A DNA stretch of 64,000 nucleotides from NCBI GenBank assembly GCA_022457155.1, contig JAJGOT010000200.1, positions 1,240,001-1,304,000 of the forward strand, given 5' to 3'. The notes beneath the pieces are model-generated. The model was not told the DNA's origin. It saw only the letters and a list, made by a program, of their open reading frames with translations, and did no database searches. The position numbers and the translations under genes are program-made. This DNA is from Cladopsammia gracilis (taxonomy: Eukaryota; Cnidaria; Anthozoa; Scleractinia; Dendrophylliidae). Positions 29,666 to 54,625 of the stretch are shown in pieces (the stretch's first letter is position 1; the number at the start of each line of letters is the position of its first letter).

Positions 29666-29835
29666 TGTTACACTCCGACAAAATGTTCTTTAATCTTTCT
29701 TCGAAAACAGACGCGCTTACAGAAAACATCGAGTGATCCGACTTTTTACAACTCGAACTTCGCACATGGGATTCTTTTACATCCCATAATATCAACTCGG
29801 GACTGGGCCCAGTCTCTTGCGACTTGCTTGCTACA
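29666..29835 (-). repeat. Gypsy 3' LTR (170 bp)
   Basis: Plus-strand ends tgttacactcc...gcttgctaca, i.e. TG...CA on the element strand. Pairs with 36176-36345. Confidence 0.93.
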
Positions 29836-30198
29836 CACTCCCCCTCCAGCTGAAATGTCGTCCCGACATTTGCATAGTAAATGTAAGCTATGCTTAATTT
29901 CAATTACAAAGGCAACTGAAAGACAAATAAATACTGATTCTTGTGGCCCTAGTGGCCGCTGCTGAAATGAGTATCATTTCCTATTTTTAAACTAAGTAAA
30001 CTTATTGACAGCACTGACTTGGTCATTGTTCGTTTGTGACAATCCTGTGTGTCCTTTCCGTAATTAATTCCGAATACTATCAGTTCCTCAGTTCCTCGGT
30101 TTCTGCATTTAAATCCGTCTGGTCTGCCATAGTGACGTTGTCCACTTGTATGGAGAGAATGTCAACCCATAGTATCATGTGTTATCAGTAAGACATGC

Positions 30199-32385: not shown

Positions 32386-32948
32386 AACGTACGTTAGCGG
32401 GTTGTTGTCGGTGAATACAACGAAAGACGACGCATAGAATAGATAGGCCCAGAATTTTTCAGTGATGACCCATTTCAGGGCCAGAAATTCCAGTTTCCCC
32501 GAATGAAGATGATAGTTACGTTCTGCTGGTGTGAGTGTCCTTGAGCCGTATCCAACAACTCTCAGCTTGCCCTCCTGGCCTGTTCCTGATACAGGACCGC
32601 TCCAAGGCGTTCACACGAGGCGTCTGTGTGTAACACAAATGGTTTCTCAAAGTTAGGGTAAGCCATTACTCCTGGCTGCAACAAAAGGTCGACTAAGAGG
32701 TTTAGTCGTTCTTGAAGTTCTGGAAATGTCGACCTCTTGGGCTCTTTCCGTTTCCCAGTTGTGATGCCTTGGTTACTTATGTCTTTAGCTGATGACAGCA
32801 GGTCATAGAGTGGCTTAGCTGGTCTGGAGAAGTCCTTTATGTACTGCCGGTAATAGCTAATGAAACCGAGGAGTTTGCATAGGGCACCTACAGTCTTTGG
32901 CTTCGTTTCTTTGAGGGCTGTTACGGCTGCCAGATCAGCGGGATCCAT
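32386..32948 (-). pseudogene. Gypsy RT thumb and RNase H, frameshifted
   Basis: [20 protein letters not shown] and LLGFISYYRQYIKDFSRPAK are RT connection sequence. KPFVLHTDASCERLGAVLYQ starts RNase H with its first Asp. The frame breaks near 32562. Later RNase H residues (FTDNNPLTYVMSSAKLNATG) are in the frame that enters the integrase ORF. Confidence 0.85.
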
Positions 32949-34146
32949 TGTGTAACTATCTTTCCCAAGTAACGAACACTTGGCTTAAACAGATGACACT
33001 TCTTTGCCTTAGGTTTAATGCCATGTCCTTGCAAACGTTTCAGTACCTGTCTTACATCTTCTACATGCTCCATAAACGTTTTACTATATACTAGGATGTC
33101 GTCCAGGTAGGGGATACATATCTCATCTCGCAAGCCCTCTAAGCAGTTCTCCATGTATCTCTGATAAGCTGCTGGGGCATTTTTTAGACCAAATGGAATG
33201 CGGTTCCATTGGTACAACCCCCAAGGTGTGATGAATGCTGTTAAGTGGCGGTGTTCTTCTGCTACGAATCCCTGGTGATACGCTTTCCCTTGGTCGAGAA
33301 ATCTATATTTTTATAAGTGTTGTATTATCTGTAGTTTTTCTTGTTTAGTGTGTTCTTGTAAAATGTATATATCTATTGTTATGAGTAAAATAAAATTGTA
33401 TTGTATTGTATTGTAAAAGTGGGTGTTACCACTAAGGCTGTTCAGAATGTCTTGGATACGGGGGATCGGTTGGCGATCATCTTTGGTTTTGCTGTTTAAT
33501 TGACGATAATCTACACATAATCTAAAGGTACCATCTTTTTTTCTGATGCAAACCACTGGTGATGAATATGGTGACTTTGATTTGGTTATCTAAGTACGAG
33601 TAATCATGTCTTGCAGATGCACTTTTACCTCTCCGTACAAGGGCTTGGGATGGACTTGTAATTTTTCTGCACTGGCTTATCATCATTAAGGTTAATTTGA
33701 AGTTCCAATTCCCTAGCATAACCTATGTCACCATCATCCATAGCAAAGGCTCCGGACTCCTCCTTTAACATTGCCTCTACTATTCCTCTCTGTTCACACG
33801 GCAAGTGGCTCAGGTCAACTTGCGGAACCCATTGTCCTTCTCCTTCTTCGAACTTTTCAGACTGTCGATTACCATCAGTTGCATCATTTCCTATATTAGC
33901 CACCTCTGTAACACCACGTCTGCCTTCAGGCTCCCCTTGCTTGTTGTCTTCGAATGGCAATGGGGTAACAAACTGAACTAACTGTATCGTGCCCAGTTCG
34001 GTACGTTTGCGTAAAGTTATCCCCCTCTGTGTCTGGTTGCATACTGGGATAAATATTCTGCTTGAAGACCCGGCCTGGATCCGGTTAAGGCATTCTTTCA
34101 CTTCGAGTCCCTCAGGCCACATCCCGTCTTCTTTAGGTTCAAACAC
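32921..34146 (-). pseudogene. Gypsy reverse transcriptase with a 117-bp insertion
   Basis: Upstream linker (34146-33625) leads to RT. MVCIRKKDGTFRLCVDYRQL lies at 33556 and continues to SGNTHF, where foreign sequence intervenes (33301-33417). RT resumes with [10 protein letters not shown]. The palm motif YLDDILVYS lies at about 33100. A frameshift after VRYLGKIVT (about 32950) passes reading to the next piece. Confidence 0.88.
33301..33417 (+). mobile_element. 117-bp LINE/SINE 3' tail inserted in the Gypsy RT
   Basis: AT-rich sequence ending aaaataaaattgtattgtat, with a tandem attgt tail, interrupts the RT between NTHF and LDQGKAY. The tail polarity places it on the plus strand. Confidence 0.7.
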
Positions 34147-34158
34147 AACTGGTACATC

Positions 34159-35421
34159 TTACTCTAATGGCCCAAAGTGCACTGGACATTTAATCCATAC
34201 AGTCTCTTCTGGTGCTAGATGTATGTCATGCTTTCCAACTCTAAGCACCCCGGTATCAGCCTCCTTTTCCTTGGTTTGAAGGAAGTTAACAAGTGATTTT
34301 GCCTTGCCCCCCACTACTGATGGAAATGAATCATTCACTATTTGCGTTAAGACATTTGGGGCGTCAGAACTCCCATTTCTTTTTATCACCTCTTCAATGA
34401 CATTAAACCCGATGATGGGATGTTCTTGGTTATCCTGACTTCCTACAAGTATGGGAATTGTCAATAGTTCAGACTCTTCGTTCTCTCCGGCTAGCTGAAA
34501 ATCTACCTTGACCCAACCATCATATGGAATTTCCGTACCATTTACAGCTTGAAGATTCAGTTCCTCTCCCTCCAGTAACTCACTGATGTCTCTTATTGGT
34601 TCTTCAGGTAAATGAATCTCTTTCCAACGCTTCGGCATAACACAGACCTGAGTACCAGTATCCCACAGGGCATCCACTCTTCTCCCCTGCAGTACACAGC
34701 TTACCATACATTTTCTTCCCACTAACTTGGTCAATTTTGTACGCTGTCGTGGTGTTAGATGAGAGGAAAATGACGTATTCATTTCTCCAACACTTGCCCT
34801 GGTTTGTCTGGATTCCACCTCTCTAATGGCTTGGCAAAGTTTTTTGTGTTCCACCCAATGTGTCCTCTGACACACGTTTGAACAATAATAGCTGGCATGG
34901 CACTGTGAGCAGCGTAAGTACCTATTGCCCTGTTGTCCTCCTTTCCCGCAATTCATGCATTGTTGGGACTGTTCATGTATCTTCTGGGTTGCCCTTGTCC
35001 CGCGGTGGCGACCCCATGCCGTTTCCCTGGAAATGTTCTGGGCTTTGTAACCTTGGTCTGAAACACTGGTAACTAAAACGTCCACGCCCTCCACAACTGA
35101 AGCAATGGTCACAACAGTAACCCACACCTTCTCTTTGCAACTCAAGCAACCCCTGGGGCGCGACCTCCCCTGCTCTACAAATCTGTATTGATTTGGGGGG
35201 ACAGTGTTACGTTGGTTTCCCATGGTTTCCCTGATGGCTGCAAGTTCTGCTTTCATCTCTCTAACTTCAGTAAGTAAGTTGACTTTTGCTGGCTTTTCCG
35301 GGGTCTTACCCTCCGCCACACCTCGATTTTCACCTGAGGAAACCATTTGAGCTACTTGTTGTAGGGGGCCCTGTCTCAGGTGCTGTTCACGCCGGGGGCC
35401 AAGCGTTTGACATCGTTCCAT
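34159..35421 (-). CDS. Gypsy MYND-type zinc finger plus aspartic protease ORF
   Basis: Open for 420 residues. Residues 155-196 (genomic 34959-34834) contain Cys/His with MYND spacing: C155, C158, C171, C174, C180, C184, H192, C196. Further on, ALWDTGTQVCVMP is the DTG active site of a retroviral-type aspartic protease, followed by GEELNLQAVNGTEIPYDGW. It lies between gag and RT, where the nucleocapsid and protease normally sit. The finger appears to replace or supplement the usual CCHC knuckle. It may work by frameshift with gag; the start ATG at 35421 is only the first Met of the open frame. Confidence 0.75.
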   Translation of the reverse strand: MERCQTLGPRREQHLRQGPLQQVAQMVSSGENRGVAEGKTPEKPAKVNLLTEVREMKAELAAIRETMGNQRNTVPPNQYRFVEQGRSRPRGCLSCKEKVWVTVVTIASVVEGVDVLVTSVSDQGYKAQNISRETAWGRHRGTRATQKIHEQSQQCMNCGKGGQQGNRYLRCSQCHASYYCSNVCQRTHWVEHKKLCQAIREVESRQTRASVGEMNTSFSSHLTPRQRTKLTKLVGRKCMVSCVLQGRRVDALWDTGTQVCVMPKRWKEIHLPEEPIRDISELLEGEELNLQAVNGTEIPYDGWVKVDFQLAGENEESELLTIPILVGSQDNQEHPIIGFNVIEEVIKRNGSSDAPNVLTQIVNDSFPSVVGGKAKSLVNFLQTKEKEADTGVLRVGKHDIHLAPEETVWIKCPVHFGPLE

Positions 35422-35436
35422 TTCATTGCTAACTAA

Positions 35437-36160
35437 TTAATTTAGCTTTTCAAACAGTTCTTCATCTGTCACTTCAGCATTTTGAAGGTAAGGCTTTACT
35501 TCCGATTTAATACTGTCACTCTGTAAGTCAGCAGTCGCCCCTTTTTCTTGGAAGTGCGACCGAAGAATTTTACCTAGTGTGGCTAAAGTCAAATCGGGCT
35601 TACCTTCAAGGTAACTTCTTAGCCTTAGTCCAGGATTGATCGCCCGGATGACCGCCTCCGTTACATCCTTTTCGTTGTAGCCACGATTTAACCCAGCGTT
35701 AATTTGATGACAAGCCAAGATAAGCCAAGCTGAAAAAGCTAAGTCGATCCTTTTGACGCAAATCCCCGATCTGTCCCGATATTTTAAACTCTTTCTTGAA
35801 TGGTGGGATTGCTGTAAATCCTTTCGATGTATCCACACTCAGCACACTCGCCTCAGGCTGATCTGATTTCTGCTCGGATGCCTTCTTTTTCGTGTCCTGT
35901 TCGCTCTTGACCCTCGCAAGAGATTTCATCTTCGCCACAACCGTCGCTCTCAGTTTCTGCAATGCTTCTATTTCTTATTCTTCGGCGTCCAAGTATTTAG
36001 TAACTCGTTGAATCAGGGCAAGGCAGCCCGTCTCGTTCTCCTTTAACTCGATTTGTAATTCCACACATAACTCCCGAAGAGTCGCTTCGTCTAACTGACA
36101 AATTGCGGCTCTTAACTCGATCTGGGTTTCTTCCACTACGCTGGCCTTTCTCTGTGTCAC
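35437..36160 (-). pseudogene. Gypsy gag-like ORF, frameshifted
   Basis: Three overlapping open pieces: MTQRKASVVEETQIELRAAI from 36160, MQKLRATVVAKMKSLARVKS from 35962, and a helical capsid-like piece from 35838 with WLILACHQINAGLNRGYNEK. A Gypsy gag is expected at this place and the helical composition fits. The breaks near 35970 and 35770 make it inactive. No classical CCHC knuckle is seen here. Confidence 0.7.
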
Positions 36161-36175
36161 GTCGGGGTCACCAAA

Positions 36176-36345
36176 TGTTACACTCCTACAAAACGTTCTT
36201 TAATCTTTCTTCGAAAACAGACCCACTCACAGAAAACATTGAGTGATCCGACTTTTTACAACTCGAACTTCGCACATGGGATTCTTTTACATCCCATAAT
36301 ATCAACTTGGGACTGGGCCCAGTCTCTTGCGACTTGCTTGCTACA
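36176..36345 (-). repeat. Gypsy 5' LTR (170 bp)
   Basis: About 96% identical to 29666-29835 by eye. Next to it on the element strand is TTTGGTGACCCCGACGTG, the likely primer binding site. Confidence 0.93.
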
Positions 36346-36926
36346 CCTTCAACTGTTTTTCCCTAACATTTGATAGATACTGTTTTACTGAGCGATCTGC
36401 GGCCGGGTTACCAATCCCCATGAGGGGCTGCCATTCAGTATCTCTCCCATTTTCTGCAAAAATTGATCTCAATTTTCCTATTAGAGAATCTACTGTTCCA
36501 TGGGCAAGACGTAAAGGGCACTGACCGGACGCCTGCCTCTGGCACTCCGGCTGATGGACGCGTGTTCGTCCTCCACGATCTTTCCATACAAGGAATGCAA
36601 CCACGTCAGCCGGCAGAGCTGTGGCGATAGATTTAGGCGAGGACAGGCTGAACAAGAAATTGGACAGCTCACGCTCGAAAGAACTTTTTTGTCTGACGTA
36701 GCGCGATGACTGGTGCCGTCGAGCAAAATGCAAGTTGCTCTACGCGTTCAGAGATGGCACTTCCTTGAACGACTTTCTTTAACTGTTGCCCTACTTCACT
36801 ATCTTGAGCCCTTTTCCATTCATAGCCACATTGTCGACAGTACTTGAACATTTCGTCATTTGCGTACGAACACGAAGGGCAGGCCACCGAGGGAGTGAAG
36901 AGTTTGGGAATCCTTGGCAATGTCTG
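36346..36926 (-). pseudogene. DIRS tyrosine recombinase, N-terminal part
   Basis: Begins with a zinc-ribbon-like segment (ACPSCSYANDEMFKYCRQCG; Cys pairs) at about 36880. A frame change near 36700 leads to ELSNFLFSLSSPKSIATALP, DVVAFLVWKDRGGRTRV and GTVDSLIGKLRSIF, ending NVREKQLK at the Gypsy junction. This is the SAM-like core-binding region of DIRS recombinases. Confidence 0.8.
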
Positions 36927-37622: not shown

Positions 37623-37628
37623 GATAGT
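37623..37628. repeat. 6-bp target duplication GATAGT, left
   Basis: Repeated at 50723-50728. A single copy restores the DIRS coding phase GGA TAC ACT ATC GGC ATT on the minus strand. Confidence 0.9.
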
Positions 37629-38110
37629 AGTAGTATACAGAATAGCGGTTCTGCAACCGGTGGACCATGTGGATCATGTGGATCAAGCGGGTCCGCATAT
37701 ATTAAGCAATTTAAGCGGGAAAATGACATCATCGTGGTAAACAATAGGGTTTGAAGGCCTGTTTAAGCTTGCCCAGTCAGTAAAGTATGACGTGATGGTT
37801 ATAAATACGGTACTTTTGTATGCGTGTTTGCTTTCTTGTAATGTTTTTGTGTTTTGTATTGTCAGCAAAATAATGGTGTGATAGAATTGTATTATGAAAG
37901 CGGGACTGTACAGATTAAAAAATTTGTAGGTTCATTGTCTCTTCTATCAACAACTTTGACATCCTAATTAATCTTTTCTAATTTTCTCTAGTAAGTGATT
38001 GGTTTAAAAGGGGTTTTTGATCGACTTCATGTAATAAGTTTAACGAGGGCCATTCGATTCCTAATTTGTGATGTGTAAATCTAAGTAGATGTATTGACTG
38101 AAATAAATAT

Positions 38111-38299
38111 ATGCGTATCTTCCTTCTGTACATAACACCCATGGGAGCGCTCTGTTTTGGTCCAAATGCAAATGTAGAACACTGTTTCAAGGTTTGTAGT
38201 TTAGATTACCGCATAACGAAAGAACACCCAGACAGTTATCATTTCAACTTGTATTTATTTGATATGTTCATCAGCGTTCCAATGGTAGTTAAAAGGTAA
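38111..38299 (+). CDS. 62-codon ORF near the left end of the palindrome
   Basis: MRIFLLYITPMGALCFGPNA through MFISVPMVVKR. Present in both arms and open in both, convergent with the polymerase. Unknown; it may be a chance frame because the arms are so similar. Confidence 0.3.
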   Translation: MRIFLLYITPMGALCFGPNANVEHCFKVCSLDYRITKEHPDSYHFNLYLFDMFISVPMVVKR

Positions 38300-38363
38300 G
38301 TCAACAAATCTAAAGTTCCGAGTGATATTTACATACAGCTACAAACATTTTTTTTCAAAGGAC

Positions 38364-41300
38364 TCAACAAGCATTGATTTTATAATGTCCATACGCCAGT
38401 GTTTGGCATCCATTACTTAGAATGTGTCGTTTGTCATCATAAGGTGAAAGGCTTGTCTTCGTCAAAGTTACAGAATAGATCTGATGGTTCTCGCTCCTAA
38501 TTTGATTCATCTGTGCCATCTGTGGACGTTTATCAAATAGGCAGCTCTTATAATCCTGGTGGCGAATTTTCCTCTTTGTAGTACTCTTGGAGATACCCTT
38601 TGCTGTTTTCTTTTCCACTGGTTTGTTGTCTTCAGTGAACAGGATTGAGTACATTCTGGGTCGAAGACCGATAAACTCAATTATTGGCAAGCCGTGAGTT
38701 TCGTTCTTCATTTTACCTAGGGCTTTCTTGTTTTGCGTACTGTACAGAAAATGGTCAGGTGGGTACTCTGACGTGTCAAAACAATCCAGATCTTGAAGGA
38801 AATCGCGGTACAGATCATCTGTGTGCACATCATAACACAGACTGTCGGTATCAGTAAAAAGAAGTTTACATTTAGCTCCATACTTTGAAACCATATAGTT
38901 GTAATGAAAATCATACATGAGCACTTTCGACAAATCAAGTATGGTAAAACCAACGTAAATAGGGCGATTCAGGTACAACTTTGTCTTTCTCATATTAACA
39001 GCGACCAGGTCTTCGGAGAAGATGCGGAAAGAATCAAAGGCAGCTCAGGTGATGCAGTGAACTTGTTGAGTGTTTCTGGCTTTGTCAGCAGCTTGACATT
39101 CACACGCTTTCGTAGGTTTTCCACAGTCTTACCAAAGACAGCATTGTTCATGAGTTTAAAGAAGTCTTTCTCAAAATCATTCGCTGCCATTTTACGTTTT
39201 GCTGTGTTGAAGTCAATGTAACTCTTCAGCCAAGTGCTTTGTGCAAAGCCTAATACTCTGTGAATCTTTGTCAACTTCATGCCAAGGTCTAGGTATAGTT
39301 TCAGGTTGCGGTAGTGGAGAATGTAACGATTTTTGTTGAAAAGATTCGGCACCAACTTTGGGACCGCTGCGCCGCCCAACTTTAGGTCTTCATTGAGTTG
39401 TTGACAGTAAGGAGACAGCAAGTTAGAAGTGACCCTCATTTTCTCAGGTGCTAGCGGATAATCTGAATGGAGGTTGTGAAGCTCTGGTGGGTACTCTAAA
39501 TCTACATCAAGAATGTAACCCTCCTCGCAGTCATCAGCCACCTTCTGCACATCTAAATCTTCGATTTCTTTTTCTGAAAGCCAGAAAAAATCATGAGTCG
39601 GGAGAGGTTGACTCATGGCCCAACCATACAAGTTGTTGGCGTCTAGGTACATGATATAGTTCTTATCTTGTGTTGAGTCATAGCCAGGGGCATATGGGTT
39701 ATTTGCTTTGCTGTAGCGATTGCTGATCATGGAAATACCGCCACGAATGCCCTCCTCTAGGAAAAGGTAGATACCAGGCTCGGTTATAAGTTTAAGTGCT
39801 ACTTCGGTCATCTTGAGGCAGGCGGACCAGGCTAGACCAGGAGAAGTGTAGTAATGAGCGGGGTCCAGTCCATGGTAATTCAAACAGATGCTTCGGAAGT
39901 TTTCGAACACATCGGTCAATAAAAGCACATCTGAGAGAAGGTAAAGATCGTGGTAGTCGCCGAGATTTTGCATTTGAAAGGTCATAAACACATTTTGCGC
40001 CTGTTGATAATCTTGGTCACTAATGTGCTCTTCAGTTAGCCGGCTGAAGAAGGCTTCTTTGGGAGGAAGCTGTCGTTCTTGAAATTTGTGCATGTCATCC
40101 ATATAATCGTACGGGTAAACACCTTTTCTCAACAACAGAGGCACTTTGTTTTCTTCAATGTAGCGCTTGAGAACGTGAAATTTGCCATCTCCTTCCTGAG
40201 ACAAGTTACACACAAGTTTCTCTAATGACGCGTTCATAAACTTATATGAATCAATAAAATCCAGGTGACCAATCGAGAAGGAAATGTACTTTTCCGTGTT
40301 GTTCGGGATGCAGTTAAGGGGTTTGTTCTTAAGCTTCTCAGCGCCTTGCATGATGAGATGAGAGTCATACCCCCTGAGATTATGAAAATTGACTGGTATT
40401 CGACCAGTAAATTGAAAGTTTAAGTTGCAAGAATTATGAGCCGCCCCTCTAAATCTGCCGGTGAGATGACAGTGATCACGCACTCTATCGGCTCCAAGTT
40501 CCTCTCTACAGATATGACAATGAGTGGCGCATTGAAACTGCTGTTCCTCAGTAGGTGTCAGTTGCATGGGAACAATCTGTCTTAAGATGGCCTGAATTCT
40601 CTCCTCCTCTTGTTGTATAGACTCAAGAAACTTGTTCACAGCATCTTCGCCTCGGTAGACTACAGGAGGTTTGCAGTAATCAAGCCTCTCGGAGACTATG
40701 ACATAAGAGAACCCACATGCTTGGTGGTTCTGGAACTTTTCGGTCGATGATTTGCTGGGATCGGGCGAGACAGTATGTATCTTGGTGGTCAAGCTCTCAA
40801 AATCCGCATAAATCACAAAGGGGACCCGGAGCTGCTTATGGAAATCTTTAAACTGGAGAATCATGTTGTCGTCGCTTGGTAGTTCTATTCTCTGAGACCC
40901 ATGTTGACTGCAAAGAAGCTTGTGATCTTCTAAAAGTTGCTCTCGCACAAAATCGTGAAGACAGTGAGGGCAGTAGAACATTTGACCTTCATATCGCGTT
41001 TGACTTGAAAGAAGTCGGTTGAGGTTTCGGATCAGGCAGCAATGGCGTTTCTCACCCAGAGAATAGAGCATTGAGTTGACGTGAACAGGATAGCGTTCCT
41101 TGCTTATGAAAACAGGAAATAATGCACCTTGCTCAAATCCAAACACGTTAACAGCTATCTGGGTTTGCTTTTCAAATGTTGGAATTTTACTAACAGGCAC
41201 AGGAAATTCTATACCTTCAAAGTTCAGTTCCTTTACGTGTGCTTGGTAATGATGAATCCGTGCAGGGTAAGATCTCCGTGGAATTGGATGTAAAGCTGCC

Positions 41301-42217
41301 AGCACGCTCCACATGAAGCACTTGTTGTCGCCATTCTTGATATTAACAATCGCCTTTTTGTTCTTTAATTTCTTTGGCAGAGGGAGATAGCTCGATCCTT
41401 TCAGAGGCTTGTACTGAGCTACATTTAAATCTAGATGCAGTATTTCTAAGAGCATCCAGCCACTTCCTTCTTTTTGATAAGTCGCAAAGGCGCTTAAAAT
41501 CTTCTGGTTAGCGTCGTTAAGCTGTTCTTCTATTTCATGTGCGTTGACTGTACTCATGCATAAACTCGGAAAATGCGGTTCTGCGACCAGATCGGAACCA
41601 TCTGCTTTTGGTTTCACGAACTTCACTTGAACGCTGACAAACCACTTTATTCCTTTCTTAGCAGCACGTTCTTGTTTCAAACGATGAAGGAGCGGCTTCT
41701 TCTTGCTATGTAGAAACAGTCTTAGATCGTTTTTCTCTTGAATACGAGGTTTTAACTTGAAGGTCTTCAAAGTACACTTAAACGCCGAGATGAAATCGCA
41801 ATGATCTTCTGTGTTGTCGTCTTGCACAGCTTCATTTGCGGCTTGTGGGGGCACACTGTGCTCCACCTTGTCATCCAGTTTGATTTCTTTACTTGCTGGA
41901 GCGTCGCTATCCACCTCTATGGTGCTAAGTTTTCGTTTCATGCCATTATCAAAGGCTGGCCGTTTCTCGACCTCGCATAGCTTTTGGTGTTCTAAGCACA
42001 TATCTTGACGATAAAACTTGCGACTGCAATGCTGACATTGATGTGTCTTGTCTTGAGAACGTTTCTTCATATGCCGCTTTAAAGCACCTTTTCGATTAAA
42101 GGAATCACCACACCGCTCACGATGAAAAGAACTGCCACCGTGAACTGCTTTCTTATGTCGTGCCAGGTTAGTTTCCTGAGAAAACTGCTTCTCGCAAATA
42201 TCACATATAAAAGCCAT
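38364..42217 (-). pseudogene. Family B DNA polymerase with C2H2 fingers and endonuclease VII-like insert, left copy
   Basis: Protein-primed-type DNA polymerase (organellar/viral family B). Long frame from an ATG at 42217, broken by an extra 5 nt (gagct) near 39045; the remainder (38993-38364) is open to the end. Order: C2H2 fingers at about 5-81, exonuclease motif YADFES (472 and 474), a Cys/His motif CHICREEL...DHCHLTGRFRG at about 567-601 as in endonuclease VII/HNH domains, GYDSHLI (about 618), YLLSDVLLL (about 763), catalytic YLDANNLYGW (about 859), KLMNNAVFGKT, and FTDTDSLCYD after the break. The region DNKCFMWSVLAALHP at about 297-311 is conserved but unassigned. This copy keeps an 8-residue stretch, TAKRKMAA, that is absent from the right copy. 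Confidence 0.9.
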
Positions 42218-42574
42218 TCTATACTCTTAACAATCGCTGTCCGCTTACTTTTTGATCCACACTCTTCGAAAGCTTGTTTCGAAATAAATCATGGTTGTAC
42301 AAGAGTTAAATTTATTTGCGTCCTAAACAATGCTATTGTGAAATCCCTCTCTTCATTGGTTGGTTAAAGAAACCATTATGACGTCACTATGGCAAGCCTG
42401 GCCATGTTTGGAGAACTCGACGACATCTAAAATGCAACTGTCAGCAGAATATGGCGCTGTTGACGGTTTTGACGTATTTGGCCTGGCTTTAGCTTTTTTT
42501 GGCCAGGTTTTGGCCTGTTTGATCATCAATGTATACAGAAAAATTGTTACACAAATGTCATTTGTGTCTTGTCG
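42218..42574. promoter_or_regulatory. Divergent promoter region, left arm (inferred)
   Basis: Lies between the polymerase start (42217, -) and the likely start of the zinc-finger ORF (first candidate ATGs at 42360 and 42555, +). Divergent genes this close imply a shared control region. The mirror copy is about 45806-46162. No specific motif is claimed. Confidence 0.45.
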
Positions 42575-42977
42575 TCTAACTGTAAACATGGTCTACAAAA
42601 GAGTTTGTAGAGATTGTCCGATTCGAGGATGCGGTGCAAAGTACCTCGTAAGACTAGCTGACCATCTTGCAGATGTTCATCAGTTGGATCACACGCAACG
42701 GAGAAAGTACCTTCAAGAAGCCAAACTACAACCAAAAGTTAAAGTAATTATCTACCACAACACGGAGAACAACCGCAAAGACTCGGGAGAATGTTTCACA
42801 AGCGAAACACTGCCATCGACTGAACAAGAAGAACAACGCACTGTTTGTCATGTATCGACACCCAGAGAACCAAAAGCTTTACCGCAGTTTAAAGCAAGCG
42901 GTGTTAGAAAAACAACAAAAACTATTAAACGCCGTCAAAGGACAAAACATTTACCTTCTCAATGGCTCACTTTATAA
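42360..42977 (+). CDS. Small zinc-finger protein, left arm (205 codons at most)
   Basis: Open in both arms and divergent from the polymerase. The core CRDCPIRGCGAKYLVRLADH then LADVHQLD has C-x4-C-x10-H-x4-H spacing. A basic C-terminus (KTTKTIKRRQRTKHLP) suggests nucleic-acid binding. The first ATG gives 205 residues; an internal ATG (MSFVSCRLTVNMVYK, at 42555) gives a more compact protein with the finger near its start and seems more likely. AATAAA lies at 42998-43003, 21 nt after the stop. A plausible role is a DNA-binding or regulatory protein of the element; no family name is claimed. Confidence 0.65.
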   Translation: MVKETIMTSLWQAWPCLENSTTSKMQLSAEYGAVDGFDVFGLALAFFGQVLACLIINVYRKIVTQMSFVSCRLTVNMVYKRVCRDCPIRGCGAKYLVRLADHLADVHQLDHTQRRKYLQEAKLQPKVKVIIYHNTENNRKDSGECFTSETLPSTEQEEQRTVCHVSTPREPKALPQFKASGVRKTTKTIKRRQRTKHLPSQWLTL

Positions 42978-43036
42978 CCTATTAATGTCAGGAGCACAAT
43001 AAACTTAAATCTGTAAAACCATTTACACCACCACAG

Positions 43037-43196
43037 ATGGCACGGATGAACCAAATTAGAAGCAAGAATCATCAACTCTATTCAGTCTATGACTTTGACC
43101 AAAACAAGTCTATCTCCCTATGACGACAAACGCTATATTTTACAAAACGGATGTAAGACACTGGCTTATGGACATTATAAGATCAACGCTTGTTAA
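43037..43196 (+). pseudogene. Diverged polymerase C-terminal tail, left arm
   Basis: Reads MARMNQIRSKNHQLYSV, then in another frame TLTKTSLSPYDDKRYIL and LAYGHYKINAC with a stop at 43196. It matches the last about 50 residues of the polymerase genes but is clearly more diverged from them than the arms are from each other, and it has opposite polarity to the full gene in the same arm. Sequence after it (43202-43450) also resembles 37861-38105 at the arm's outer end. Confidence 0.8.
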
Positions 43197-43717
43197 CGCT
43201 TGTTTGTCAATGGAATAATTGTATTGTAGAATTATAATGTATTGCAGAGTTGGGTAGATATATGCTCTCGTCTTTATAGTGTTCGCTTCTATTCTTTGTA
43301 AAACTTAATCTTAATAAAACATTGTTTCTCTCTCTCTAGAAGACGATTGGTTAAAAGCGGTTTTCGCACCATTCAATTCTATGAATTGGTAGTTTTATGA
43401 AGGTCATTCGATCCATAAATTGTGGTGTATTTTAATCGATGATTTCAGTAGGTTTAGTCTACTCTTTATTTATCACTTTGACTTTCCGGTAGCTTCAAAG
43501 TTCAAACTTTTAATTATGCGAACACTGAACTATAAATTTGCATGGAAAATAAGCACCTCTGTCAAAAAAAAAACAAAGCAGCCGTGCTAAGACAACAAAG
43601 CCACACGTTTAATTTTAACAAACCTCGTCAAAGTTATATCAAATCGTCATGTCAACAAAAGCGGTTTTATTTACAACCATTCAAATCCACGCACAGCACA
43701 GTCAAATGGTAAGAAAA

Positions 43718-44659
43718 GTTGGTTTCTGCAAAACACCAAAAATTAAGTTACTGAAACGACAAACAATAAATTGGAGTCATTCAGCGCGAATTAAACCGAC
43801 CCCTTGGTTAGTTTTGCAGAAACTAACTTTTGTGCCCTAGTCAATGTGGCTGACTTGATTCTCTGGCAATGGATCGATCAGCAATCACAACGGAACCATT
43901 TCATGCATTATCACCTGAGTTATCACTGGCATTTTCTTAACGAAAGAGACGTTTATTTAGTAAATGGGCACCAACACGATTTTACATTACGTTAATTACT
44001 AAAAAATGGTCAGTTTGTATATAGTTTCGACAGCGGAGCCGAAAGTTTTTAAGGAGAAAATGTTGCGGGAATATATGGTAGAAAAATTAGAACCCGCAAA
44101 AATTTAGTGCGAACGGTAATACAGACCAGCAAAATCATATATTTTTACACAAACATTACGTAATGTCTTCTTACAATCTCATGTTTTCAACAGTATGCAA
44201 ATACAAATGAATAGTTCAATTACCCTTGAGACAGCTTAATTGCAATTAAAAAGAGTATTTTGAACTCGTGTCTATTCTCTTTAGCACGCGAATAGCGCTG
44301 TGCATCCAAACAATCCTTGACTTCAAGAAAAAGCATTGTTAATTCGTTCCTAAACTGTTATCGCTATTTGAACGTTCATTCGTCACGCTTTAAACTATCG
44401 CAGGCCAGTTACTTTTCTTTCGAGTAAAGTTGTTAAATTTAATACAAATTAATGTTTGGACATGCAACTTTGCTTTGGTTATCTGGTTACTTTCTTATAA
44501 ATAAATATGGTCAAGGATTTCCGAAAACAGCCTCGAATCCAACAAGTTAATTTATTGGATGATAAACGTAAAAGTGCGAACTCGGCTTCACTGATTGATA
44601 TCGCCGAACGTTATAAGTATTTCAAGGAAGAAGACGATCGGTTCCATCGTTAAGTTTGA
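43718..44659. other. Unique 942-bp loop of the palindrome
   Basis: The only single-copy part of the element. It holds no polymerase or integrase sequence. One short plus-strand ORF reaches its right edge; the rest is AT-rich with no recognised feature. Confidence 0.85.
44507..44653 (+). CDS. 48-residue charged ORF in the palindrome loop
   Basis: MVKDFRKQPRIQQVNLLDDK to YKYFKEEDDRFHR, ending 6 bp before the right arm. The AT-rich tataaataaat just upstream is too close to be a TATA box for this ATG. Unknown; listed because it is the only coding candidate unique to the loop. Confidence 0.3.
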   Translation: MVKDFRKQPRIQQVNLLDDKRKSANSASLIDIAERYKYFKEEDDRFHR

Positions 44660-45183
44660 TTTTCTTACCATTTGACTGTGCTGTGCGTGGATTTGAATGG
44701 TTGTAAATAAAACCGCTTTTGTTGACATGACGATTTGATATAACTTTGACGAGGTTTGTTAAAATTAAACGTGTGGCTTTGTTGTCTTAGCACGGCTGCT
44801 TTGTTTTTTTTTTTTTGACAGAGGTGCTTATTTTCCATGCAAATTTATAGTTCAGTGTTCGCATAATTAAAAGTTTGAACTTTGAAGCTACCGGAAAGTC
44901 AAAGTGATAAATAAAGAGTAGACTAAACCTACTGAAATCATCGATTAAAATACACCACAATTTATGGATCGAATGACCTTCATAAAACTACCAATTCATA
45001 GAATTGAATGGTGCGAAAACCGCTTTTAACCAATCGTCTTCTAGAGAGAGAGAAACAATGTTTTATTAAGATTAAGTTTTACAAAGAATAGAAGCGAACA
45101 CTATAAAGACGAGAGCATATATCTACCCAACTCTGCAATACATTATAATTCTACAATACAATTATTCCATTGACAAACAAGCG

Positions 45184-45343
45184 TTAACAAGCGTTGATCT
45201 TATAATGTCCATAAGCCAGTGTCTTACATCCGTTTTGTAAAATATAGCGTTTGTCGTCATAGGGAGATAGACTTGTTTTGGTCAAAGTCATAGACTGAAT
45301 AGAGTTGATGATTCTTGCTTCTAATTTGGTTCATCCGTGCCAT
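45184..45343 (-). pseudogene. Diverged polymerase C-terminal tail, right arm
   Basis: Mirror copy of 43037-43196, so it was already present when the palindrome formed. Confidence 0.8.
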
Positions 45344-45402
45344 CTGTGGTGGTGTAAATGGTTTTACAGATTTAAGTTTATTGTGCTCCTGACATTAATA
45401 GG

Positions 45403-46020
45403 TTATAAAGTGAGCCATTGAGAAGGTAAATGTTTTGTCCTTTGACGGCGTTTAATAGTTTTTGTTGTTTTTCTAACACCGCTTGCTTTAAACTGCGGTA
45501 AAGCTTTTGGTTCTCTGGGTGTCGATACATGACAAACAGTGCGTTGTTCTTCTTGTTCAGTCGATGGCAGTGTTTCGCTTGTGAAACATTCTCCCGAGTC
45601 TTTGCGGTTGTTCTCCGTGTTGTGGTAGATAATTACTTTAACTTTTGGTTGTAGTTTGGCTTCTTGAAGGTACTTTCTCCGTTGCGTGTGATCCAACTGA
45701 TGAACATCTGCAAGATGGTCAGCTAGTCTTACGAGGTACTTTGCACCGCATCCTCGAATCGGACAATCTCTACAAACTCTTTTGTAGACCATGTTTACAG
45801 TTAGACGACAAGACACAAATGACATTTGTGTAACAATTTTTCTGTATACATTGATGATCAAACAGGCCAAAACCTGGCCAAAAAAAGCTAAAGCCAGGCC
45901 AAATACGTCAAAACCGTCAACAGCGCCATATTCTGCTGACAGTTGCATTTTAGATGTCGTCGAGTTCTCCAAACATGGCCAGGCTTGCCATAGTGACGTC
46001 ATAATGGTTTCTTTAACCAA
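45403..46020 (-). CDS. Small zinc-finger protein, right arm
   Basis: Mirror copy of 42360-42977 with identical translation. Identity between arms while the polymerases accumulated indels could reflect constraint, recent formation or arm-to-arm conversion. Confidence 0.65.
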   Translation of the reverse strand: MVKETIMTSLWQAWPCLENSTTSKMQLSAEYGAVDGFDVFGLALAFFGQVLACLIINVYRKIVTQMSFVSCRLTVNMVYKRVCRDCPIRGCGAKYLVRLADHLADVHQLDHTQRRKYLQEAKLQPKVKVIIYHNTENNRKDSGECFTSETLPSTEQEEQRTVCHVSTPREPKALPQFKASGVRKTTKTIKRRQRTKHLPSQWLTL

Positions 46021-46162
46021 CCAATGAAGAGAGGGATTTCACAATAGCATTGTTTAGGACGCAAATAAATTTAACTCTTGTACAACCATGATTTATTTCG
46101 AAACAAGCTTTCGAAGAGTGTGGATCAAAAAGTAAGCGGACAGCGATTGTTAAGAGTATAGA

Positions 46163-49100
46163 ATGGCTTTTATATGTGATATTTGCGAGAAGCAGTTTTC
46201 TCAGGAAACTAACCTGGCACGACATAAGAAAGCAGTTCACGGTGGCAGTTCTTTTCATCGTGAGCGGTGTGGTGATTCCTTTAATCGAAAAGGTGCTTTA
46301 AAGCGGCATATGAAGAAACGTTCTCAAGACAAGACACATCAATGTCAGCATTGCAGTCGCAAGTTTTATCGTCAAGATATGTGCTTAGAACACCAAAAGC
46401 TATGCGAGGTCGAGAAACGGCCAGCCTTTGATAATGGCATGAAACGAAAACTTAGCACCATAGAGGTGGATAGCGACGCTCCAGCAAGTAAAGAAATCAA
46501 ACTGGATGACAAGGTGGAGCACAGTGTGCCCCCACAAGCCGCAAATGAAGCTGTGCAAGACGACAACACAGAAGATCATTGCGATTTCATCTCGGCGTTT
46601 AAGTGTACTTTGAAGACCTTCAAGTTAAAACCTCGTATTCAAGAGAAAAACGATCTAAGACTGTTTCTACATAGCAAGAAGAAGCCGCTCCTTCATCGTT
46701 TGAAACAAGAACGTGCTGCTAAGAAAGGAATAAAGTGGTTTGTCAGCGTTCAAGTGAAGTTCGTGAAACCAAAAGCAGATGGTTCCGATCTGGTCGCAGA
46801 ACCGCATTTTCCGAGTTTATGCATGAGTACAGTCAACGCACATGAAATAGAAGAACAGCTTAACGACGCTAACCAGAAGATTTTAAGCGCCTTTGCGACT
46901 TATCAAAAAGAAGGAAGTGGCTGGATGCTCTTAGAAATACTGCATCTAGATTTAAATGTAGCTCAGTACAAGCCTCTGAAAGGATCGAGCTATCTCCCTC
47001 TGCCAAAGAAATTAAAGAACAAAAAGGCGATTGTTAATATCAAGAATGGCGACAACAAGTGCTTCATGTGGAGCGTGCTGGCAGCTTTACATCCAATTCC
47101 ACGGAGATCTTACCCTGCACGGATTCATCATTACCAAGCACACGTAAAGGAACTGAACTTTGAAGGTATAGAATTTCCTGTGCCTGTTAGTAAAATTCCA
47201 ACATTTGAAAAGCAAACCCAGATAGCTGTTAACGTGTTTGGATTTGAGCAAGGTGCATTATTTCCTGTTTTCATAAGCAAGGAACGCTATCCTGTTCACG
47301 TCAACTCAATGCTCTATTCTCTGGGTGAGAAACGCCATTGCTGCCTGATCCGAAACCTCAACCGACTTCTTTCAAGTCAAACGCGATATGAAGGTCAAAT
47401 GTTCTACTGCCCTCACTGTCTTCACGATTTTGTGCGAGAGCAACTTTTAGAAGATCACAAGCTTCTTTGCAGTCAACATGGGTCTCAGAGAATAGAACTA
47501 CCAAGCGACGACAACATGATTCTCCAGTTTAAAGATTTCCATAAGCAGCTCCGGGTCCCCTTTGTGATTTATGCGGATTTTGAGAGCTTGACCACCAAGA
47601 TACATACTGTCTCGCCCGATCCCAGCAAATCATCGACCGAAAAGTTCCAGAACCACCAAGCATGTGGGTTCTCTTATGTCATAGTCTCCGAGAGGCTTGA
47701 TTACTGCAAACCTCCTGTAGTCTACCGAGGCGAAGATGCTGTGAACAAGTTTCTTGAGTCTATACAACAAGAGGAGGAGAGAATTCAGGCCATCTTAAGA
47801 CAGATTGTTCCCATGCAACTGACACCTACTGAGGAACAGCAGTTTCAATGCGCCACTCATTGTCATATCTGTAGAGAGGAACTTGGAGCCGATAGAGTGC
47901 GTGATCACTGTCATCTCACCGGCAGATTTAGAGGGGCGGCTCATAATTCTTGCAACTTAAACTTTCAATTTACTGGTCGAATACCAGTCAATTTTCATAA
48001 TCTCAGGGGATATGACTCTCATCTCATCATGCAAGGCGCTGAGAAGCTTAAGAACAAACCCCTTAACTGCATCCCGAACAACACGGAAAAGTACATTTCC
48101 TTCTCGATTGGTCACCTGGATTTTATTGATTCATATCAGTTTATGATCGCGTCATTAGAGAAACTTGTGTGTAACTTGTCTCAGGAAGGAGATGGCAAAT
48201 TTCACGTTCTCAAGCGCTACATTGAAGAAAACAAAGTGCCTCTGTTGTTGAGAAAAGGTGTTTACCCGTACGATTATATGGATGACATGCACAAATTTCA
48301 AGAACGACAGCTTCCTCCCAAAGAAGCCTTCTTCAGCCGGCTAACTGAAGAGCACATTAGTGACCAAGATTATCAACAGGCGCAAAATGTGTTTATGACC
48401 TTTCAAATGCAAAATCTCGGCGACTACCACGATCTTTACCTTCTCTCAGATGTGCTTTTATTGGCCGATGTGTTCGAAAACTTCCGAAGCATCTGTTTGA
48501 ATTACTATGGACTGGACCCCGCTCATTACTACACTTCTCCTGGTCTAGCCTGGTCCGCCTGCCTCAAGATGACCGAAGTAGCACTTAAACTTATAACCGA
48601 GCCTGGTATCTACCTTTTCCTAGAGGAGGGCATTCGTGGCGGTATTTCCATGATCAGCAATCGCTACAGCAAAGCAAATAACCCATATGCCCCTGGCTAT
48701 GACTCAACACAAGATAAGAACTATATCATGTACCTAGACGCCAACAACTTGTATGGTTGGGCCATGAGTCAACCTCTCCCGACTCATGATTTTTTCTGGC
48801 TTTCAGAAAAAGAAATCGAAGATTTAGATGTGCAGAAGGTGGCTGATGACTGCGAGGAGGGTTACATTCTTGATGTAGATTTAGAGTACCCACCAGAGCT
48901 TCACAACCTCCATTCAGATTATCCGCTAGCACCTGAGAAAATGAGGGTCACTTCTAACTTGCTGTCTCCTTACTGTCAACAACTCAATGAAGACCTAAAG
49001 TTGGGCGGCGCAGCGGTCCCAAAGTTGGTGCCGAATCTTTTCAACAAAAATCGTTACATTCTCCACTACCGCAACCTGATACTATACCTAGACCTTGGCA

Positions 49101-49986
49101 TGAAGTTGACAAAGATTCACAGAGTATTAGGCTTTGCACAAAGCACTTGGCTGAAGAGTTACATTGACTTCAACAATGATTTTGAGAAAGACTTCTTTAA
49201 ACTCATGAACAATGCTGTCTTTGGTAAGACTGTGGAAAACCTACGAAAGCGTGTGAATGTCAAGCTGCTGACAAAGCCAGAGAAACTCAACAAGTTCACT
49301 GCATCACCTGCCTTTGATTCTTTCCGCATCTTCTCCGAAGACCTGGTCGCTGTTAATATGAGAAAGACAAAGTTGTACCTGAATCGCCCTATTACGTTGG
49401 TTTTACCATACTTGATTTGTCGAAAGTGCTCATGTATGACTTTCATTACAACTATATGGTTTCAAAGTATGGAGCTAAATGTAAACTTCTTTTTACTGAT
49501 ACCGACAGTCTGTGTTTTGATGTGCACACAGATGATCTGTACCGCGATTTCCTTCAAGATCTGGATTGTTTTGACACGTCAGAGTACCCACCTGACCATT
49601 TTCTGTACAGTACGCAAAACAAGAAAGCCCTAGGTAAAATGAAGAACGAAACTCACGGCTTGCCAATAATTGAGTTTATCGGTCTTCGACCCAAAATGTA
49701 CTCGATCCTGTTCACTGAAGACAACAAACCAGTGGAAAAGAAAACAGCAAAGGGTATCTCCAAGAGTACTACAAAGAGGAAAATTCGCCACCAGGATTAT
49801 AAGAGCTGCCTATTTGATAAACGTCCACAGATGGCACAGATGAATCAAATTAGGAGCGAGAACCATCAGATCTATTCTGTAACTTTAACGAAGACAAGCC
49901 TTTCACCTTACGATGACAAACGACACATTCTAAGTAATGGATGCCAAACACTGGCGTATGGACATTATAAAATCAATGCTTGTTGA
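46163..49986 (+). pseudogene. Family B DNA polymerase with C2H2 fingers and endonuclease VII-like insert, right copy
   Basis: Same gene as 38364-42217 in mirror orientation. The frame is open from 46163 through the exonuclease motifs, endonuclease VII-like motif and the first palm motifs. It lacks 24 nt before NDFEKDFFKL (about 49176), an in-frame loss. It then loses one T near 49394 (in cctattacg), which throws the rest out of frame. The C-terminal palm with FTDTDSLCFD and thumb continue in another frame at 49417-49986. The break is therefore at a different site from the left copy. Only small substitutions separate the two elsewhere (for example FQMIASLEK against FKNASLEK). Confidence 0.9.
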
Positions 49987-50051
49987 GTCCTTTGAAAAAA
50001 AAATGTTTGTAGCTGTATGTAAATATCACTCGGAACTTTAGATTTGTTGAC

Positions 50052-50240
50052 TTACCTTTTAACTACCTTTGGAACGTTGATGAACATATCAAATAAATAC
50101 AAGTTGAAATGATAACTGTCTGGGTGTTCTTTCGTTATGCGGTAATCTAAACTACAAACCTTGAAACAGTGTTCTACATTTGCATTTGGACCAAAACAGA
50201 GCGCTCCCATGGGTGTTATGTACAGAAGGTAGATACGCAT
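50052..50240 (-). CDS. 62-codon ORF near the right end of the palindrome
   Basis: Mirror copy of 38111-38299 with three or so substitutions (for example FINVPKVVKR) and no break. Confidence 0.3.
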   Translation of the reverse strand: MRIYLLYITPMGALCFGPNANVEHCFKVCSLDYRITKEHPDSYHFNLYLFDMFINVPKVVKR

Positions 50241-50722
50241 ATATGTATTTCAGGCAATACATCTACTTATATTTACACATCACAAATTAGGAATCGAATG
50301 GCCCTCGTTAAACTTATTACATGAAATCGATCAAAAACCCCTTTTAAACCAATCACGTACTAGAGAAAATTAGAAAAGATTAATTAGGATGTCAAAGTTG
50401 TTGATAGAAGAGACAATGAACCTACAAATGTTTTAATCTGTACAGACCCGCTTTCATAATACAATTCTATCACACCATTATTTTGCTGACAATACAAAAC
50501 ACAAAAACATTACAAGAAAGCAAACACGCATACAAAAGTACCGTATTTATAACCATCACGTCATACTTTACTGACTGGGCAAGCTTAAACAGGCCTTCAA
50601 ACCCTATTGTTTACCACGATGATGTCATTTTCCCGCTTAAATTGCTTAATATATGCGGACCCGCTTGATCCACATGATCCACATGATCCACCGGTTGCAG
50701 AACCGCTATTCTGTATACTACT

Positions 50723-50728
50723 GATAGT
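50723..50728. repeat. 6-bp target duplication GATAGT, right
   Basis: Partner of 37623-37628. Confidence 0.9.
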
Positions 50729-52709: not shown

Positions 52710-54625
52710 TTAAAAATTATAATAGAGAAGGTGTTTGAATTCACTTAATGAACAAGACTCTCTAATGTTACAGGGTAAGCTGTTCCAAACGGTTGCCCCG
52801 CTGTAACTAAAACTATTTTTAATATAGTTAGTTCTTGGAAAGGGGACAACAAGTTTGTTTACCGAGTTCCTCAAAGAATAGTTTGATTCATTTCGCTTTA
52901 TAAATTTACATGTGAGATATTCAGGTACCAGACCGTTTAAAGACTTGAAGACCATCAAGGCGTTCTGAATTTGACGTTGAGAATACAAGTCTTTCCAGTT
53001 GAGTTTGTGAAACAAGGAATAAACATCTAAGTCATAGTTTGACGAAGTAATTACTCGTGCAGCACGGTTTTGTAGTTTTTGTAGTTTGTTAGATAATGTT
53101 TTGCCACAATTACCCCAGACTGGGCTGCAGTAATCAAAGTGAGATTGAACTAATGAGTTGTATATATTGAGTAGGATGGATTGAGGCCCAAATGGCTTAA
53201 CTCGCTTTATGGCTCCAATTGCAGAAGCGATCTCTTTACACAGTTTATCAATGTGGGAATGCCACGTTAAATTTTCATCGATATAAATTCCAAGTGATTT
53301 CACAGAAGAAACTTGTTCAATCGGAACATTATTAATGGAAAGTTCGAGTGTATCAGATAGAGTATTTAATCTTTGCCTTGAGCCGATCAACATAAATTCA
53401 GTTTTTGTAGGGTTCAAGGTAAGTCTGTTAGACACAAGCCATTTACTTAGCTTTTCAAGTTCTTGAGATAGACTAGACTGAATCGAATGCAAATCAGAAC
53501 CAGCATAAGTAATGTGGGTGTCATCAGCATACATTCTAGGCACGCTGAACGATAGACAGTTAGGCAAGTCGTTAATATAAATTAGAAATAAAAGGGGGCC
53601 AATGATCGTTCCTTGTGGCACACCACATTTAAGAGTGGTGAAGTCAGAAAGACAGCCATTAACTGAGCACCGTTGTGTGCGATTCGTCAAATACGATTTA
53701 AACCAATGAAGAGTTTTACCTTGAATCCCACATCGATTCATTTTAGTTAGTAATATCTCATGATCAACGGTGTCAAATGCCTTTTTAAGTCGAGAAACAC
53801 TACGGCATTTACGTAGCCACGATCGATATTAAATGCCCAGCTGTCAGTGGCTTCTAGAAGAGCAGTAACAGTTGAGTGTAAAGACCGAAAACCAGCTTGT
53901 TGTTTAGAGATGATTTGTTCACCATTTAAGAAGTTGTATAACTGATCGTACACAATCCTCTCGAACACTTTGGCGACTACGGAAATGACTGAGATAGGTC
54001 GGTAATTGTTTAAATCAAATGACTCACCCTGTTTAAACAACGGATTCACTCTGGCACATTTCCAGTCGTCAGGAAAGATACCAGACATCAGAGATTTATT
54101 AACGCATAACGAGTCTGAAATAATATCAGCACACTCACGAATCAACCTAGAAGAGATATTATCGAGTCCTATAGCTTTAGTTTCTGACAATCTATTTAGA
54201 TAGGTAAAGACCTTACTGGTAGTAATTGGACGAAAACAGAATTCGTTGTTATTTTCGGGAATATTGTTTAAATAAGTAGACTCTTCGTCCGAAGTTAAAG
54301 GTATTTCGCAGGCTAGTCTAGGCCCAAAAGTTGAAAAGTGTTCGTTAAAGGCATTGGAAATCTCGTTAGAGTTACAGGTAGAGATGCCATTTACTTTCAC
54401 ATCCTTTACTATCTGGTTGTTTTGACAACGAGACATTAAGTTGTTAATAGTTTTCCAAGTCCTTCGAGCATTTCCTTCGGATTGAATAAAACTATTGTTA
54501 TAATAGGATGCCTTAGTGGTTTTAACTTTATTGTTGATTCGATTTCGGAGTTTTCTGTAATAAGCCCAGTCTTTAGGATTCTTTGTTTTTATCGCTTTCT
54601 TTTTAGCAGCATCGCGATAGCGCAT
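52710..54625 (-). pseudogene. LINE reverse transcriptase (CR1/L2-like), one frameshift
   Basis: 54625-53747 covers the N-terminal extension and first RT blocks (KCARVNPLFKQGESFDLNNY, RPISVISVVAKVFERIV, NGEQIISKQQAGFR). A shift after VVFLDLK (about 53785) passes to 53741-52710, which has the remaining blocks: CGVPQGTIIGPLLFLIYIND, MYADDTHITYAG and NPTKTEFMLIGSR. YADD is the catalytic pair. Confidence 0.92.

Follow-up and report, generated by a model that had tools for sequence, protein, structure and literature searches.

A Polinton-derived family of palindromic elements with head-to-head PolB genes in Cladopsammia gracilis

Can a mobile element persist when nearly its whole body is an inverted repeat of itself and, if so, how would it be copied and inserted? 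The question is raised by a 64,000-nt stretch of Cladopsammia gracilis contig JAJGOT010000200.1 (hereafter 'the window', to whose positions all coordinates refer), in which a 13,094-bp palindromic element spans positions 37629-50722. We report that this element has siblings at many independent places of the host assembly, and we consider it reasonably probable that together they represent a Polinton-derived, polymerase-only family that is propagated as self-complementary DNA (probably via a hairpin) and integrated in trans.

Structure of the window element

Alignment of the two arms (left 37629-43717 against right 44660-50722) gave 6,034 identical columns out of 6,093. The ends of the element read AGTAGTATACAG...CTGTATACTACT, which is of the Polinton type (AGTAGT...ACTACT); the terminal 12-mer AGTAGTATACAG was found without mismatch at these two ends only when the window was searched, and the hexamer GATAGT is exactly duplicated on both flanks. 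The original prediction of inverted arms of about 6.1 kb around a 942-bp loop, of Polinton-like ends with an exact GATAGT duplication and of two head-to-head PolB genes is thereby borne out: the arms measure 6,089 and 6,063 bp and the loop 942 bp, both the ends and the duplication lie at the element borders, and each arm carries one PolB that points outward, with its 5' end towards the loop. Both copies are frameshifted, and the breaks differ between the arms. The features of the element (open reading frames being abbreviated as ORFs) are as follows:

37623..37628, no strand: target-site duplication GATAGT, left copy (flank sequence)
37629..37640, plus strand: left terminus AGTAGTATACAG (12-mer search of the window)
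37629..43717, plus strand: left palindrome arm, 6089 bp (arm alignment)
38364..38993, minus strand: left PolB C-terminal part, in another frame, with motif C and tail
38990..42217, minus strand: left PolB main part, with C2H2 fingers, N-terminal region, exonuclease with HNH/EndoVII insert, and polymerase to the motif B region
42555..42977, plus strand: small zinc-finger-like ORF (CRDCPIxGCGAKYLVRL...), with 325 relatives in public proteins
43031..43194, plus strand: relic of a second PolB tail, nearest to B-subfamily elements (86-94%)
43204..43583, plus strand: segment resembling the terminal region of B-subfamily elements (90-93%)
43718..44659, no strand: loop, 942 bp, found whole or in parts also in C439, C305b, C318a, C699, C621 and C1015
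44660..50722, minus strand: right palindrome arm, 6063 bp (arm alignment)
45186..45349, minus strand: mirror copy of the PolB-tail relic
45403..46020, minus strand: right-arm counterpart of the small zinc-finger-like ORF, in a longer frame
46163..49633, plus strand: right PolB main part, 1156-aa ORF
49417..49986, plus strand: right PolB C-terminal part, in another frame
50711..50722, minus strand: right terminus, same 12-mer as the left (12-mer search of the window)
50723..50728, no strand: target-site duplication GATAGT, right copy (flank sequence)

A family of palindromes across the assembly

The host assembly (878 Mb in 1,469 contigs) holds 157 exact occurrences of the 12-mer, as compared to 108 of a reversed control. 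Many of these matches are due to chance, since seven of eight places checked were without any family sequence. Nevertheless, among 100 listed places we encountered 15 convergent pairs (the window included) spaced by less than 25 kb, where about 0.18 would be expected for all 157. By adding places from PolB loci and from B-type ends (ten and two places sampled, respectively) to these 15 end pairs, 24 insertions with both ends were assembled. As seven of the 24 entered via PolB matches (six of them picked as head-to-head pairs), the sample favours palindromes. Outside it stand C1415, C621 and C1015, whose two ends were not both read, and C803, a further pair of B-type ends.

Exact 6-bp duplications, different each time, flank 21 of the 24 insertions (the exceptions being C699 with 4/6 matching positions, C1343 with 5/6 and C1020 with 1/6), and inverted arms cover at least half of the length in 19 (10 of 15 when the end pairs are taken alone). 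The five that fall below half are C305b and C318a, in each of which an almost complete arm is left together with the loop, C699, which has deletions in both arms, and C325 and C408, whose terminal arms are short. In C408 another insertion interrupts a palindromic element; of one C325 arm, at the left end, no more than about 0.2 kb remains. An ordinary member with these ends and short terminal inverted repeats (TIRs), set beforehand as the refuting result, was not found among the 24.

Arm lengths range from 5,332 to 6,830 bp in seven elements (window, C439, C1112, C318b, C182, C1122 and C674). In five insertions the palindrome, 10.7-13.7 kb long, is near-perfect and the loop measures 11-105 bp; C1112 has arms of 5,332 bp that differ by 8 substitutions around an 11-bp loop, and four members of a subfamily B, with ends AGTAGTATATATAAT (one C318b end being 3 bp short), have arms of about 6.8 kb (C318b: 12 substitutions, 105-bp loop; C182: 10, 39 bp; C1122: 4, 39 bp; C674: 9, 53 bp).

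The palindromic structure of the window element is thus confirmed: since many independent places show it, every one of them with a target duplication of its own, it is not due to chance, and a one-arm assembly error is disfavoured on the same grounds. The duplication of one arm by the assembler could be suspected from the inner 3.3 kb of the window arms (in which a 3-bp indel is the sole difference) and from the difficulty of assembling perfect palindromes; we hold it to be highly improbable in view of the differing duplications at both ends of the 21 insertions, the arm-specific differences and the head-to-head gene order at 11 loci (see below). The search of the assembly for the same ends and 6-bp duplications, which the original prediction had asked for, therefore favours one of its two alternatives, a distinct polymerase-only family, of which siblings with the same ends, arms and loop (or parts of the loop) exist at other sites.

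The polymerase genes and gene content

A PolB search of the assembly (40 of 5,630 candidates scored) yielded 47 matches at 29 loci. At 11 of these loci the matches form pairs, and all 11 pairs are head-to-head (divergent). The outward orientation would mean that no PolB transcript needs to cross the centre. Frames open from start to stop were found in C1112 (1,282 aa) and C318b (1,280 aa). Between the subfamilies A and B the protein is 83.1% identical (dS 0.98, dN 0.093, dN/dS 0.095 for one gene pair), which on this one A/B pair points to purifying selection and suggests that PolB has been kept working over a long time. In a tree of 35 proteins the A and B PolBs join the Actinostola protein P0011, the closest PolB with a name there, and then a group that holds a Dendronephthya protein.

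The assignment as PolB is a prediction based on motifs, relatives and fold. At E 0.01 no Pfam profile of PolB was matched by the window protein, sequence matches to solved structures are zinc-finger chains (best 60 of 98 and best 60 of 109 matches), and Foldseek taken alone was weak, with no match at E 0.001, zinc fingers in first place and the African swine fever virus polymerase at rank 4. In IMG/VR we identified two distant relatives: L001, which by Pfam has an integrase and an ATPase, and L002, virus-like by eye. A scan with the single protein found none there. Seven short contigs filed as bacterial genomes (L003-L009) encode PolB of the palindromic-element type, most likely as eukaryotic contamination of binned genomes; in L005 and L008 an integrase-like frame, recognised by eye, adjoins PolB.

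Gene content was read from the left halves of C1112, C318b, C182 and C1122 and from the window element. None of the ORF lists of these regions contains an integrase, ATPase, protease or capsid gene, in agreement with the original prediction, to which no such gene was visible. Besides PolB pieces, the largest frame has 141 aa in the four left halves and 205 aa (no Pfam match) in the window element. The small zinc-finger-like frame recurs across palindromes; among the longest relatives of the copy at 42555-42977, P0123 and P0124 hold about five tandem copies of its motif. A frame next to the loop (43393-43587) that resembled an integrase by eye was discarded, being unsupported by Pfam.

Palindromes that lack PolB, or retain at most its tail (C305a, C380, C447, C624, C714 and the outer part of C408), look like non-autonomous members of the family. 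Together with the lack of an integrase in the palindromes read, they could be taken to indicate a non-autonomous foldback-like family that is moved as DNA only, by an integrase in trans, with PolB as a passenger. We find such a role for PolB decidedly improbable, given the open frames of C1112 and C318b and the strong purifying selection that the subfamily comparison suggests. Moreover, the arms are most alike in PolB-bearing elements (C1112, C824 and the B elements) and less alike in PolB-less ones; shorter members have lower arm identity (C305a 97.6%, C699 93.5%, C624 and C714 about 91%).

Loops, arms and element history

The window loop recurs, whole or in parts, at the six places given in the feature list, and a 39-bp loop is common to C182 and C1122. 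As loops are shared, new insertions inherit the palindromic form from earlier ones, and the other alternative of the original prediction, one snap-back event integrated once, is left unsupported. A related possibility is that every palindrome arose on its own, through a snap-back deletion in a normal linear Polinton, and was integrated in trans; it would then resemble the palindromic defective genomes that protein-primed replicons form. The centres do differ between groups (C1112, C92, C621 and the loops of 39-105 bp), and for the kalilo plasmid a deletion derivative able to form a hairpin is reported, by the title of a work cited in PMC11071308; yet the shared loops indicate inherited centres, and none of the 24 insertions is a linear parent that combines these ends with PolB, for which reasons we regard independent origins as improbable. 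Snap-back may nonetheless account for the origin of the palindromic form and of new centres (C1112, C92, C621). In C621 (L052-L053) the loop itself is doubled and inverted, with a new centre within the old loop and a shortened right arm.

Arms are homogenised element by element. They are 99.59% identical within the window element and 99.64% within C439, as compared to about 96.4% between these two, and 99.82-99.94% alike within B elements, as compared to 93.1-97.3% between them. Window and C439 differ at 190 element-specific sites and have 46 private differences, and not a single site unites one arm of the first with one arm of the second. Across the eight B arms, the corresponding counts are 574 element-level sites, 21 private arm differences and 2 shared ones. 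Because arms are far closer within than between elements, both arms of an insertion appear to derive from one template, in the manner of the paired long terminal repeats (LTRs) of retroelements. Furthermore, the left and right 550-bp ends of an element are mutually closest in 11 of 15 elements. An apparent 'loop flip' between window and C439 was dropped as evidence of recombination, as it merely reflects insertion orientation.

Near its centre the A arm carries the remnant of a PolB tail and of a terminal region, both of B type. The B arm in turn contains A-type terminal sequence, PolB tail and small zinc-finger-like frame, and the two subfamilies have thus exchanged parts. Some palindrome centres (among L038-L047) sit in 10-bp tandem arrays, e.g. 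ACTCAGAGCA. Foldback transposons have arms that consist of short tandem repeats; in the palindrome centres scanned here, short tandem arrays were seen at C1112 and C182, and only 2-copy ones by the window centre.

A proposed mode of propagation

We propose that full members, in which two divergent PolB genes of the protein-primed type lie between Polinton-type ends and the whole body is inverted repeat, are propagated as follows. PolB, with its N-terminal terminal-protein-like region, would start synthesis at a free end of the linear palindrome, and the displaced single strand would fold back along its entire length to form a hairpin, by which a duplex end would be restored. Copying of the hairpin from its single open end would then regenerate the linear palindrome. 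The arms may be made identical before integration, either through in-strand arm pairing with repair or through the copying of one arm from the other, and an integrase supplied in trans would insert the product with a 6-bp duplication.

More tentatively, and with less than even confidence, we suggest that these elements may typify a self-sustaining class of mobile DNA, the genome of which is a single self-complementary strand: it would replicate solely as a giant hairpin, terminal-protein-primed at its single open end, and only the integrase would be borrowed. If so, both copies of the single essential gene would be reset to identity in each cycle, and an element that borrows an integrase would mirror the satellites that borrow a polymerase.

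Evidence weighing against the proposal

Several observations weigh against this mode of propagation. At the most general level, neither an extrachromosomal form, nor a terminal protein, nor a hairpin was observed; the gene reading covered the five elements named above. With respect to the arms, the 550-bp end pairs are not mutually closest in C285, C318a, C325 and C699, and the mismatches are clustered: in C1112 and the four B elements they crowd the inner quarter (26 of 43, p ~9e-7), a pattern not predicted by simple identity of the arms at birth, and in the window element all 25 substitutions fall in the outer half (19, 6, 0 and 0 by quarter), the inner half being free of them. This clustering implies that something also acts after insertion. 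The main rival of the hairpin reading is that the arms would be homogenised by chromosomal gene conversion after insertion, as in sex-chromosome palindromes, and transposition itself would not homogenise them. The window pattern agrees with conversion, and long arms that lie close together are generally good partners for it. On the other hand, an outer bias is absent or reversed in other elements, and the zero cross-shared sites between window and C439 would demand whole-arm conversion in every element; we therefore deem conversion unlikely as the full explanation, albeit the most serious of the rivals.

The other points concern the source of the integrase. No linear parent occurs among the 24 insertions, yet an ordinary member with an integrase may exist among 11 of the 29 PolB loci, which lie outside this scope. 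The comparison with full Polintons of the species, called for by the original prediction, brought to light a complete-looking family: nested in C408 (L027-L029) is a Polinton of 17.2 kb, whose 263-bp TIRs are identical and whose ends read AGTAGT...; by Pfam, it has genes for PolB, rve integrase, Pox_A32 ATPase and YqaJ (further large frames being unnamed). At least 122 copies of its integrase (95-100% identity, 121 without a stop) suggest that this family spread recently; in a search limited to this one integrase lineage, not one of the 29 PolB loci has any of the 122 matches closer than 100 kb. In C290, C268 and C776 the ends of this Polinton family have AGTAGTATA in common with the palindromes; in C408 the agreement is limited to AGTAGT. 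In all four copies checked (AAACT in C408; C290, C268 and C776), the target duplication has 5 bp, one fewer than the 6 bp on record for Mavericks. The length of the target duplication is a property of the integrase, and the C408-type Polintons, at first read as the in-trans helper, are consequently unlikely to be the suppliers. A Polinton leaving 6-bp duplications was not identified. Integration in trans thus agrees with the absence of an integrase from the palindromes read, but its source was not found, and the 5-bp duplications lowered our confidence both in the favoured explanation and in the giant-hairpin class.

A connection to ordinary Polintons is suggested by C315, whose PolB (60% identical) adjoins an adenovirus-type ATPase gene and an adenain-type protease-like ORF (the latter recognised by eye), and in which no inverted arm was found between the two 4-kb stretches read either side of PolB. 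On these sequence comparisons, the palindromic family would seem to have branched off from ordinary Polintons, with the loss of everything except PolB.

Neighbouring features in the window

An LTR-type retroelement (29666-36346) adjoins the palindrome, with direct repeats at 29666-29836 and 36176-36346 (96%) and frames for an integrase core (30199-32385) and a MYND finger (34159-35421). Matches to reverse transcriptase and zf-RVT mark what is left of non-LTR retrotransposons at 1302-2651, 6875-8131, 52710-54625 and 61456-62112. An inverted repeat of about 330 bp (21486-21813 and 22960-23286, 95-98%) with a 1.1-kb spacer is possibly another small palindromic element.

Comparison with known systems and significance

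Vertebrate Mavericks have (AGT)2//(ACT)2 ends, 6-bp duplications and, when intact, TIRs of 46-1,447 bp (PMC8097293). The palindromes share with Polintons/Mavericks such ends, the 6-bp duplications (21 of 24 exact) and a Polinton-type PolB, and they differ by arms of 5.3-6.8 kb in place of those TIRs, by the head-to-head doubling of PolB and by the absence, in the palindromes read, of genes for integrase, packaging ATPase, protease and jelly-roll capsid. Integrase, virion genes and short TIRs, by which Polintons are defined, are wanting in the palindromes read, and we therefore call the family Polinton-derived and not a Polinton. Foldback transposons (FB, Galileo, Tetris, Tm1) likewise consist mostly of inverted repeats (here at least half in 19 of 24), vary in length and have gene-less members; the palindromes are set apart from them by arms that carry PolB and by Polinton-type ends and duplications, and no transposase of the P or Mutator kind was seen. 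Derivatives that are palindromic or form hairpins are known from protein-primed replicons, namely from adenovirus and the kalilo plasmid (the hairpin-forming deletion derivative of the latter is, by its title, reportedly the nearest precedent); these have in common with our elements the inverted duplication of the polymerase-side end and the capacity to form a hairpin, whereas the palindromes here are inherited, fall into subfamilies and are genome-resident with a PolB that appears to be selected. Bidnaviruses combine a Polinton-derived PolB with inverted ends and a smaller genome (PMC4061559), as do the palindromes. They differ in having kept capsid and helicase genes and in not being palindromes. 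Judged by their result listings, our full-text literature searches brought up no account of a Polinton-derived family that is palindromic.

A panhandle intermediate has long featured in schemes of protein-primed replication, and a family that is the panhandle alone, with arms reset per insertion, would offer a natural test of this step. Arms that are reset at insertion would, moreover, provide a clock comparable to LTR pairs. The near-perfect 13-kb chromosomal palindromes test how an animal genome tolerates such structures. Taken together, these observations suggest that a Polinton lineage can shed its integrase and virion genes and persist for long on the polymerase alone (PolB dS near 1 between subfamilies).

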